Assembly: GCA_001004905.1 (NCBI GenBank)
Contig: LCRY01000002.1
Coordinates: 343,054-378,128, forward strand
Direction: 5' to 3'
DNA length: 35,075 nucleotides
From: Parcubacteria group bacterium GW2011_GWA1_56_13
GTDB taxonomy: Bacteria; Patescibacteriota; Minisyncoccia; Phycocordibacterales; Phycocordibacteraceae
The position numbers and the translations under genes are program-made. This document shows positions 10,105 through 35,075 of the stretch, piece by piece (the stretch's first letter is position 1; each line of letters opens with the position of its first letter). The notes under the pieces are model-generated. The model was not told the origin of the DNA. It saw only the letters and a list, made by a program, of their open reading frames with translations, and did not search any database.

Positions 10105-10565
10105 TGTATTCTGTACGATTGCGGCGGCGGCGGCGCATAGGAGCCGGCAAGGCCGAAGGTGTTCGCGACGACATTCACGAGGCCCCAGAGCGATATCATG
10201 ACCACGAAGGCGATGAGACCCCACAGCAGGATTTTGTGCCCCTCATCCACCTTCCCCGGGTCGCCTTGCGAGAAAATATACTTCAACACGATGCCGTAGA
10301 GGAACACGATGAAGGCGATGGCGAAGAGCACCGGCACGAGCACGTTATTAATGATGTAGAGGATGGTGGATGCGACCTGGCAGATATTGCTCGCCCCGCA
10401 CATAAAAGGACCTCCGCTTCCAAAACTTATGGAGAAATTCCTGTTGGAGAACTGGAAATTGCCGCTTGAATCGGAATAGATGGATGTTTGGGCAAGGGCG
10501 AGCGACGGCGCCAAGAGTACTGCCGAAGCGGCCAAGACGGTGACGAAACGAGTCATTGATTTCAT
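10101..10565 (-). CDS. T4SS pilin-like two-TM protein, paralogue 3
   Basis: 154 residues from ATG 10565 (MKSMTRFVTVLAASAVLLAPSLALAQ), a signal peptide with an ALA-Q site. An inserted Ser/Asn/Gly-rich stretch with two cysteines (FMCGASNICQ) precedes segment one NNVLVPVLFAIAFIVFLYGIVLKYIF; the loop is GDPGKVDEGHK and segment two is ILLWGLIAFVVMISLWGLVNVV. The tail is Pro-rich. ATG 10556 is a possible internal start. It is the longest signal-peptide paralogue apart from paralogue 1 and the only one with the Cys pair. Confidence 0.78.
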   Translation of the reverse strand: MKSMTRFVTVLAASAVLLAPSLALAQTSIYSDSSGNFQFSNRNFSISFGSGGPFMCGASNICQVASTILYIINNVLVPVLFAIAFIVFLYGIVLKYIFSQGDPGKVDEGHKILLWGLIAFVVMISLWGLVNVVANTFGLAGSYAPPPPQSYRIQ

Positions 10566-10585
10566 ATGCGGTTCAGTATGACACA

Positions 10586-10855
10586 TCACCTAGCGGGCGC
10601 GATGCCGAGCGTGGATAACAGCAAATTCACGAGGCCCCACACCGAAAGGAGCACTACCATGCCGAGAATGCCCCAGCCGATGAATTGACGTCCTTCCGAG
10701 CGCTTCGCCTCATCCCCTCCGTGAAGGAAGAAGTAGTTTATGACCCCCCAGATGAAGACAACGAACGCGAGCGCGAAGATAAGCGGCACGATGACGGTAT
10801 TGATGACGCCGATGACGCCGGTGGAGCCGCTGCCGACGAATTGAGCGAAGGTCAT
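10586..10855 (-). CDS. T4SS pilin-like two-TM protein, paralogue 2
   Basis: 89 residues from ATG 10855 (MTFAQFVGSGSTG). A GTG start three codons earlier overlaps the GIY-YIG stop but is less likely. Segments: GVINTVIVPLIFALAFVVFIWGVINYFF and FIGWGILGMVVLLSVWGLVNLLL around the loop GGDEAKRSEGRQ. There is no signal peptide. Its start codon lies inside the TCATA duplication that flanks the GIY-YIG cassette, so the insertion kept this gene intact. Before the insertion the ATG would have followed the stop of paralogue 1 by 1 nt. Confidence 0.78.
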   Translation of the reverse strand: MTFAQFVGSGSTGVIGVINTVIVPLIFALAFVVFIWGVINYFFLHGGDEAKRSEGRQFIGWGILGMVVLLSVWGLVNLLLSTLGIAPAR

Positions 10856-11165
10856 ACCCGTCACACTAAACGGCCTCGCAGGCTGTACTGCAAGCGACGT
10901 TTAAGCGCCGCTCGCGCTCCTTGGGAGGCCTTCAGGCGAAACTCTCTTCCTTTTGCATCGGTTTGCGACATGTACGCTTCGTAGTATATCAGTTGAAATG
11001 GCAGGCGGGATCGTGTTGACCGTGCAGTTCCCATAGAATGCCCAGCGAGACGGCGTCGTAAGTCAGTTGTGAATCCAGTGTAGAGTCGGTTGTCTTTCTT
11101 ACTGTGTAGAAGATATACGTAATACATGGTCGTCTCGCAAGGCCGTTTTAGTGTGTCGGGTCATA
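10852..11165 (-). mobile_element. GIY-YIG nuclease cassette with terminal inverted repeats and 5-bp duplication
   Basis: A 300-bp-scale insertion between two pilin-like genes. The left end (10857-10879) and right end (11137-11160) are inverted copies sharing CACACTAAA and CGGCCT; over 25 aligned positions I count 2 substitutions and 1 indel. TCATA stands directly outside both ends (10852-10856 and 11161-11165), as expected of a 5-bp target duplication. Only the 88-residue nuclease ORF lies inside, and its stop codon is within the left repeat. Deleting one TCATA plus the cassette joins paralogue 1 (TAA) to paralogue 2 (ATG) with a 1-nt gap. Confidence 0.8.
10861..11127 (-). CDS. Small GIY-YIG nuclease (cassette-borne)
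   Basis: 88 residues covering a single GIY-YIG domain of the UvrC N-terminal/URI type. Visible: YYVYLLHSKK (GIY position), then LYTGFTTDLRRRLAGH (YIG position as YTG, with the conserved Arg) and the family's STRSRLPFQLIYYEAY...AKGREFRLK with a candidate catalytic Glu. No DNA-binding domain is attached. It is cotranscribed in the pilin-like operon but flanked by inverted repeats, so it looks like a mobile homing-type gene rather than a pilus gene. The ATG at 11127 is 9 nt inside the right repeat. It may act on its own insertion site; this is inference. Confidence 0.9.
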   Translation of the reverse strand: MYYVYLLHSKKDNRLYTGFTTDLRRRLAGHSMGTARSTRSRLPFQLIYYEAYMSQTDAKGREFRLKASQGARAALKRRLQYSLRGRLV

Positions 11166-11663
11166 TTACTGGCCGACCGAAAGCGCTTGCACCGTCGCTT
11201 TGATGCCGATGGCTATCGCCTGCGAACCAAGGAGAATGAGCGCTCCGACAACGGTCCATAGGAGGGCGGCTCGCGCCTCGGTTATCTTTGACTCGTTCCC
11301 CCGAGCCGCTACAAAAAGGTAACCGACGTACACCATCATCAAAATGACGACAATGGTGCCGATACGTATGACGAACGCCAGGATATTCAAGAGGAAGCTC
11401 TCTAGATTCCCTCCTCCTTGGAGCGGGTTGAGGAGCGAAGTGTAGGTGACGGGCTGTGAGAGACCGGTTTGGGTGGTGGGGCTCGTGAGGCCTTGTTGGA
11501 TATTAGTGCGCGGATCTATGGCACTGCACGTTCCATCGCTCAACCGCGGTCCGGTGACTATCTGTCCGTTAACCGTCGTCACGCAGTCGGTATCGGCATG
11601 TACAAAAAACGGCGCGCCGAATGATGCGACGAGCGCGAAGGAAACGATGATGGAGAAACGCAT
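11166..11663 (-). CDS. T4SS pilin-like two-TM protein, paralogue 1
   Basis: 165 residues from ATG 11663 (MRFSIIVSFALVASFGAPFFVHA), a signal peptide; the long track ORF upstream is a shadow of the solute-binding gene. An extracytoplasmic region of about 70 residues with two cysteines (DTDCVTT, DGTCSAI) precedes segment one LLNILAFVIRIGTIVVILMMVYVGYLFV, the loop ARGNESKITEARA and segment two LLWTVVGALILLGSQAIAIGI. It is the most divergent member of the run. It starts 2 nt after the stop of the solute-binding gene. Confidence 0.78.
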   Translation of the reverse strand: MRFSIIVSFALVASFGAPFFVHADTDCVTTVNGQIVTGPRLSDGTCSAIDPRTNIQQGLTSPTTQTGLSQPVTYTSLLNPLQGGGNLESFLLNILAFVIRIGTIVVILMMVYVGYLFVAARGNESKITEARAALLWTVVGALILLGSQAIAIGIKATVQALSVGQ

Positions 11664-33506: not shown

Positions 33507-33588
33507 CGGGGCACAGGGTATATGAGGGATAATGTCATTTTGATTAACTCCAAAACCCGGCATTCCTGTGCAAAAAATCACGCCCGCT

Positions 33589-33655
33589 CCACAATACAAG
33601 GTGGAACCCCACAATACAAGGTGCCCACAATACAAGGTGGAACCTTGTATTGTGG
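33589..33655. repeat. Triple CACAATACAAGGTG repeat ending in a 14-bp hairpin
   Basis: Three direct copies of CCACAATACAAGGTG at about 33589, 33609 and 33625 are followed by one inverted copy (ACCTTGTATTGTG). The third copy and the inverted copy make a 14-bp stem with a GGA loop. This repeat cluster encodes the odd STLYCG repeats in the track ORF 33447-33713, which I do not believe is a gene. Confidence 0.75.
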
Positions 33656-33737
33656 ATTCGCCCAACGGAACCCCAACGCGAGGACGGCTCGGCAGGAGAG
33701 GTTGGGCTCTCAATGGTGCGGTGCCAAGCCGCGTACC

Positions 33738-34887: not shown

Positions 34888-35073
34888 TTACATTTTAGCA
34901 AAATGGTTCTTAATAATAAATGCGCGACCAGATCCTGACTTGAGATATCTCTCAAATGCGAATGCTTTGTATTTGTCTTCGACAGCAAAGTAAAATTCTA
35001 GAGTCACCGGTAAACGGTTAGCGGTTGCTGGCACATTGCCTTTTTGATGCCTCTCTAAACGGTCTGCGACATT
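34888..35073 (-). CDS. GIY-YIG nuclease, C-terminal part, cut by the right edge
   Basis: Missed by the ORF track. The last 61 codons read NVADRLERHQKGNVPATANR, LPVTLEFYFAVEDKYKAFAF and ERYLKSGSGRAF up to TAA 34888. This is the second half of a small GIY-YIG nuclease: RLxxHxxG, then TxxRxPxxLxFY, then A-x-x-x-ExxLKSGxGR. It is clearer than in the cassette copy at 10861. The 5' end and any flanking repeat are outside the window. The region is more AT-rich than the dehydrogenase gene next to it. Confidence 0.85.
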   Translation of the reverse strand, partial: NVADRLERHQKGNVPATANRLPVTLEFYFAVEDKYKAFAFERYLKSGSGRAFIIKNHFAKM

Positions 35074-35075
35074 GT

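Follow-up and report, generated by a model that had tools for sequence, protein, structure and literature searches.

A 304-bp cassette lying between two pilin-like genes in a pilus operon of the ultra-small Parcubacteria group bacterium GW2011_GWA1_56_13 almost certainly belongs to a family of mobile elements, each of which consists of short terminal inverted repeats (TIRs) starting with CCC and a single gene for a GIY-YIG nuclease of 80 to 100 amino acids, with some families including gene-less miniature copies as well. This family is large, spread over the candidate phyla radiation (CPR), and apparently undescribed. Taken as a whole, the observations are best explained by a minimal transposon-like family of the CPR with a self-mobilizing nuclease, a reading that we hold to be quite probable.

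The window (the whole 35,075-nucleotide stretch analyzed here) contains the element on its minus strand, where the order is pilin-like gene, TAA, TATGA, CCCGACACACTAAAACGGCCTTGC, GIY-YIG gene, GCGAGGCCGTTTAGTGTGACGGG, TATGA, and the next pilin gene (Table 1). A reading made from the sequence only had described near-perfect inverted repeats framing an 88-residue GIY-YIG gene, TCATA on both outer sides, and a duplication containing the downstream pilin gene's ATG; all of these are present, the repeats measuring 23/24 nt and the downstream open reading frame (ORF) opening at the ATG within the second TATGA copy. The nuclease gene is also, as had been claimed, the sole gene of the element, with its TGA stop codon inside the terminal repeat. 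The flank-to-flank inverted-repeat score of the element was matched by none of 20,000 Markov shuffles and at none of 1,327 window positions of equal geometry. Known transposases (DDE, DEDD, HUH, Tyr, Ser, and Cas1) were searched for in the element and none was found, PF01541 being the sole domain match. Solo ends of this kind (type A) have no further copy in the 704-kb genome of the organism when up to 2 mismatches are allowed. An intron or other known RNA element was rejected, as there was no Rfam match at window positions 10500 to 11500, and no intron family was found in L002, L005, or eight further loci; viral origin was rejected after scans of viral contigs turned up one distant match and nothing related to the window protein. 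Elsewhere in the window, CCACAATACAAGGTG is repeated threefold and has an inverted copy at 33588 to 33656, forming strong hairpins, and another small GIY-YIG gene, with no detectable terminal repeats, begins at about 34930 to 35075 (L006).

Table 1. Features of the element and its host junction in the window
Feature	Position	Strand	Basis or remark
Whole element, 304 bp	10857-11160	minus	Terminal repeats, duplication, and empty sites
TIR at gene 3' end, CCCGTCACACTAAACGGCCTCGC	10857-10879		Sequence; same ends in L031 and L177
TIR at gene 5' end, (reverse complement) CCCGACACACTAAAACGGCCTTGC	11137-11160		Sequence
Target duplication, downstream copy, TCATA (coding strand TATGA)	10852-10856	minus	Holds the downstream pilin ATG; single copy in relatives' empty sites
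Target duplication, upstream copy, TCATA	11161-11165	minus	Sequence
GIY-YIG nuclease gene, 88 aa, UPF0213/SLX1-like	10861-11127	minus	PF01541, E 7.5e-14
Downstream T4SS-pilin-like host gene, 89 aa from the duplicated ATG	10586-10855	minus	PF18895, E 1.9e-9
Upstream pilin-like host gene	11166-11660	minus	PF18895/TrbC weak match, below family cutoff

The locus was located across the genus (Candidatus Kaiserbacteria) by means of the upstream solute-binding-protein gene, and 29 relatives were found. The nuclease is absent from the pilin-pilin junction in all 28 that can be read; the contig of the 29th ends too early. The uninterrupted junction predicted beforehand, TAA-TATGACCTTCGC (TAA-T-ATG), was recovered from same-genus relatives: L068, L077, and L089 are letter-perfect empty sites reading TAA-TATGAC with one TATGA, L076 and L080 read stop-TATGACCTTCGC, also with one TATGA, and several same-genus sites read exactly TAA-TATGACC. 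The empty junction sequence is TAATATGACC, in which the TAA of the upstream pilin-like gene is followed by T-ATG. Since several relatives have exact empty sites with a single TATGA, the element of the window was inserted there with duplication of 5 bp; the cassette entered a once-intact junction and duplicated its target. Together with the relatives that carry the same ends, these sites bear out the proposal of a mobile minimal element that has terminal repeats and a 5-bp duplication but lacks a transposase. No relative was found to keep the nuclease in place without the repeats, and the repeats do not occur solely as operon hairpins at a junction that has no empty form. The idea of an immobile gene whose repeats serve the pilin operon as control hairpins draws on their location within the operon and beside a start codon; its chance is practically negligible, and we rejected it, given the 28 relatives with an empty site and the dispersed copies in which the same ends surround the same type of nuclease at unrelated loci.

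The search for other GIY-YIG genes with these ends, which the sequence-only reading had also proposed, returned L031 (yebC/ruvC) and L177/L199 (a single locus), likewise with TATGA duplications, and dozens of further families. In the organism's own genome there are five further GIY-YIG matches, one of them UvrC-sized; two of the others, L002 and L005, also have terminal repeats, and L005 is located in arm P3 of the RNase P RNA. Of 132 small GIY-YIG loci in the genus and family, 32 scored above the 99th percentile of a null built from mismatched flanks (expectation, about 1.3); among 80 named loci across CPR phyla, 43 exceeded the 99% mismatched-pair null and 22 had no TIR. CCC-type inverted repeats were present at 86 of 202 GIY-YIG loci, and about half of the rows in the wider non-YhbQ nuclease clade are without a TIR. 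The repeats begin with CCC, and the end families include CCCGACACACTAAAACGGCC, CCCCCACACCTTTTATCTCAT, and CCCGTTAGAGATA; types A and B each occur at several unrelated genes. Two kinds of repeat were excluded from the main argument, the type F ends, which have no clear target duplication, and the tRNA-adjacent repeat of L048; at L048 (G017) the GIY-YIG gene adjoins a tRNA gene, and the inverted repeat, ATCGAGGAT..CGATTCATAAA, is of a type other than the CCC ends. A few matches fall in bins labeled Omnitrophota, Nanoarchaeota, or Methylobacter, for which misbinning is possible; the copy in Algoriphagus sp. A40 (L277) is in a Bacteroidota genome that carries no MAG label. The same strain has, at L343 (G106:C65:33312-34248), three tandem GIY-YIG matches about 360 bp apart in near-identical repeat units, each with a tRNA gene after the GIY-YIG gene.

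In the nuclease tree, the element nucleases separate with good support (100/98) from the chromosomal YhbQ-like genes, which, unlike them, lack terminal repeats in the same genomes: none of the 57 YhbQ-like nucleases of the sister clade has such repeats, and these rows therefore serve as an internal negative control. When the TIR families were mapped as labels onto the tree, 13 changes were needed, which is the minimum possible (mean with shuffled labels, 37.4), and repeat families correspond one-to-one with nuclease clades. The end sequence is thus specifically paired with the nuclease clade.

The elements are dispersed over many different insertion sites, with a target-site duplication (TSD) of 4 to 7 bp. 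A flush or near-flush TSD of at least 4 bp was present in 46 of the 86 elements with TIRs (permutation mean, 8.9; maximum, 18; 2,000 permutations), its length varying among 4, 5, and about 7; the other 40, several of which are RNA-gene insertions or older copies, have no detectable TSD. Over all elements, 19 of 22 distinct TSD sequences conform to YNNR (p 2.5e-9). ATG is found in 27 TSDs and CAT in 0, and in 25 of these 27 an ORF of 64 amino acids or more begins at the right-hand ATG; as a few are one insertion in sister species, the 27 are not all independent, and the orientation bias has a p of ~5e-7 when about 22 independent cases are counted. At the right ends of L221, L270, and L275 a second CCC-type end, e.g., GGGGGTACACCCCCACACC, stands directly past the duplication, as if elements insert side by side.

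Structured RNA genes are targets as well. Seven elements adjoin the 5' ends of tRNA genes, where an upstream 5' tRNA fragment remains (6 to 11 of the first 11 bases matching) and the terminal GGG of the element completes the restored tRNA. In RNase P RNA, the insertions of L005, L180, L212, L229, and L258 occupy the P3 arm and those of L029, L040, and L173 another arm, and relatives' arms are short at these places; L038 is an insertion in 23S rRNA, although most copies are found outside it, and the elements are therefore not confined to 23S rRNA helices. Based on these patterns at start codons, tRNAs, RNase P RNA, and 23S rRNA, the elements insert where their ends and the duplication restore the interrupted target, whether a start codon, the 5' end of a tRNA, a helix of RNase P RNA or 23S rRNA, or, for miniature copies, an in-frame peptide, which may reflect either targeting chemistry or selection. 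All examined insertions at these four kinds of target are codirectional with the target, and many insertions sit in structured RNA helices that the paired ends lengthen, as one would expect if the element spread at the RNA level, its repeats acting as RNA hairpins, like those of 23S rRNA intervening sequences, and an excised RNA or hairpin DNA being inserted with the nuclease merely assisting. We consider this very improbable: a reverse transcriptase plays no part in the element, and clean 4-bp TSDs mark many insertions into intergenic or coding sequence.

Gene-less copies were located by scanning for single type B ends. The end CCCGTTAGAGAT has 48 exact matches in 93 genomes, versus 5 for the reversed control, and many of these matches form inverted pairs 60 to 120 bp apart with no gene between them; a very short hairpin pattern (loop of up to 30) for type B was found in none of 39 genomes. 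An exact 4-bp TSD accompanies 14 of 23 gene-less type B copies (null mean, 1.6; maximum, 6; 2,000 permutations). Some are read in frame within proteins: 60-bp copies, adding 66 bases, lie in recJ (L291 and L317) and gatB (L304), where family models place the inserts inside RecJ and GatB, and in the organism's own genome a 63-bp in-frame copy with a TTTA duplication sits in a prepilin leader (L279/L320, G000:C7:7013-7075), which then reads MHPRGF-IPLE...SLTG-FTLIELLVV. The RNase P RNA of L180 combines one gene-bearing copy with three gene-less arms bounded by the same ends; in L115, P3 carries a bare hairpin. At L005 (1444 to 2335; G000:C2, about 397860 to 398750), as at L180, RNase P RNA is expanded by several arms sharing the end CCCCGTGAGATAA, one with the nuclease gene and the others being gene-less inserts of about 95 nt with a common inner sequence, and in L116 (G037) it has short hairpins with type A-like ends, CCCGCCACACTTCTGCAGTGTGACGGG, a type A element being present elsewhere in that genome (L031). 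A peptide-deformylase-like start codon (MK[DE]IVQ[DE]GA.VLRDI) has a gene-less type B copy in L314 (G065) and a nuclease-bearing copy in L139 (G101).

The miniature copies thus have the features of MITEs, being short and noncoding, with TIRs, TSDs, and ends in common with a nuclease-bearing element. The type B nuclease was found in 5 of the 11 genomes with type B miniatures and in 6 of the 82 without (Fisher p 0.003); in the remaining six miniature-bearing genomes, no type B nuclease was seen. We infer that the nuclease-bearing partner of these copies is autonomous.

A free-standing homing endonuclease gene, copied by recombination into intact alleles that it has cut, could also travel with incidental or RNA-folding repeats. 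GIY-YIG is the fold of homing nucleases such as I-TevI, and in both the I-TevI class and T4 Seg, as here, a catalytic domain of this type recurs at one site in related hosts: the pairs L024/L046 and L045/L144 are orthologous insertions at one site in different species, and conserved targets (RNase P P3, tRNA 5' ends, and start codons) recur. However, TSDs, TIRs, and gene-less copies at unrelated loci are not products of homing, a single end and nuclease family is found at several different genes, and the protein, at 88 amino acids, lacks a DNA-binding domain. Homing is in our judgment quite unlikely to account for the family.

The protein encoded in the window is a nuclease domain with no attached DNA-binding domain. 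Among PDB profile matches the UPF0213 proteins are nearest (1zg2 and 1ywl), followed by SLX1 and then I-TevI, and an AF2 model built with 46 window and locus sequences (pLDDT 88.6) gave 1zg2 as its top Foldseek match and the same ranking of structures; UPF0213/YhbQ and SLX1 (1zg2, 1ywl, and 6seh) are thus nearest to the element nuclease in both fold and sequence. The expected catalytic Tyr, Tyr-Gly, Arg, His, and Glu columns are invariant in A1 and A3. Between copies, the nuclease has a dN/dS of 0.04 to 0.33, indicating purifying selection and therefore a protein that has been kept functional.

What moves the element is judged from the genomes and from the pairing of ends with nucleases. Two transposase families, DDE_Tnp_1 and rve, were searched for: both are absent from the genome of the window and from G088, a genome with several miniature copies, and among 92 genomes of the genus DDE_Tnp_1 occurs in 6 (the window's genome being among the 86 without it) and rve in 25. 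This absence, together with the strict pairing of ends with clades, favors the nuclease as the mobilizing enzyme, and we hold with moderate confidence that the UPF0213/SLX1-like nuclease mobilizes its own ends. The elements could instead be passengers, MITEs with a nuclease gene that a conventional transposase moves in trans, the nuclease being cargo or an aid to recombination. TIRs with a short TSD are the anatomy of DDE transposition, some genomes have miniature copies and no matching nuclease, and rve-type transposases do occur in the genus; such passengers seem rather unlikely in view of the genomes that lack these transposases and of the fit between end families and nuclease clades, which takes as few changes as possible and would not arise from a shared helper.

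Under self-mobilization, the nuclease would recognize its own ends. These would probably form a hairpin or cruciform, the kind of substrate to be expected for a structure-specific enzyme resembling SLX1 and UPF0213 (SLX1 is itself structure specific). The nuclease would cut beside the CCC/GGG ends, a YNNR target would be cut with a stagger of about 4 bases, and host ligase and gap repair would finish the insertion. GIY-YIG enzymes are hydrolytic nucleases, and we know of no strand-joining activity for the fold; ligation would therefore have to come from elsewhere, and host repair is invoked. The balance tips slightly toward the fullest version of this proposal, in which a GIY-YIG nuclease mobilizes a new class of minimal DNA transposon (~270 to 350 bp) by its own CCC-type ends into YNNR sites, with start codons, tRNAs, and structured RNAs rebuilt at the insertion, and also spreads gene-less hairpins, which turn into in-frame peptides and into expansions of RNase P or rRNA helices across the CPR.

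TIRs, short TSDs, dispersed sites, and gene-less miniatures liken these elements to DNA transposons, insertion sequences, and MITEs; they differ in having no DDE, HUH, Tyr, or Ser recombinase and a GIY-YIG nuclease as their sole gene. To our knowledge, no transposon class has a GIY-YIG nuclease as its only enzyme, and none was found in a search of full-text literature (subscription papers and preprints lay outside its scope). The intervening sequences (IVS) of 23S rRNA are similarly inserted in a variable rRNA helix that their paired ends lengthen, but they have the four-helix IVP where these elements have GIY-YIG, and the targets here extend far beyond rRNA. Rickettsia palindromic elements (~150 bp; reviewed in PMC10969869) are likewise short palindromes in frame within conserved protein genes (here recJ and gatB), whereas the miniatures described here are about 60 to 120 bp and have ends in common with a nuclease-bearing candidate mover. 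Within the same scope, the only directly relevant paper found was PMC11270868 (J Bacteriol 2024), which in its passages on the subject counts GIY-YIG ORFs among those rRNA insertions of CPR bacteria that match no group I or group II intron and judges them to be outside a homing context. These small ORFs in rRNA resemble our 23S insertion, L038. The paper covers rRNA genes only, and those passages do not mention inverted repeats, TSDs, miniatures, or targets in RNase P, tRNA, or protein genes; the element family would explain its nonintron GIY-YIG insertions, and its range reaches far outside rRNA.

CPR genomes are small and, judging from the two families tested, apparently poor in conventional transposases, and yet insertions abound in their rRNA and other RNA genes. 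For part of these insertions the family is a concrete vehicle, a single-gene element of about 300 bp with its own miniature copies, and it supplies testable substrates in the form of defined ends, a defined target (YNNR, TATGA), and known empty sites. If the nuclease does the moving, it would be a new enzyme class in transposition, and the element would rank with the smallest autonomous DNA elements, one that spares its targets.
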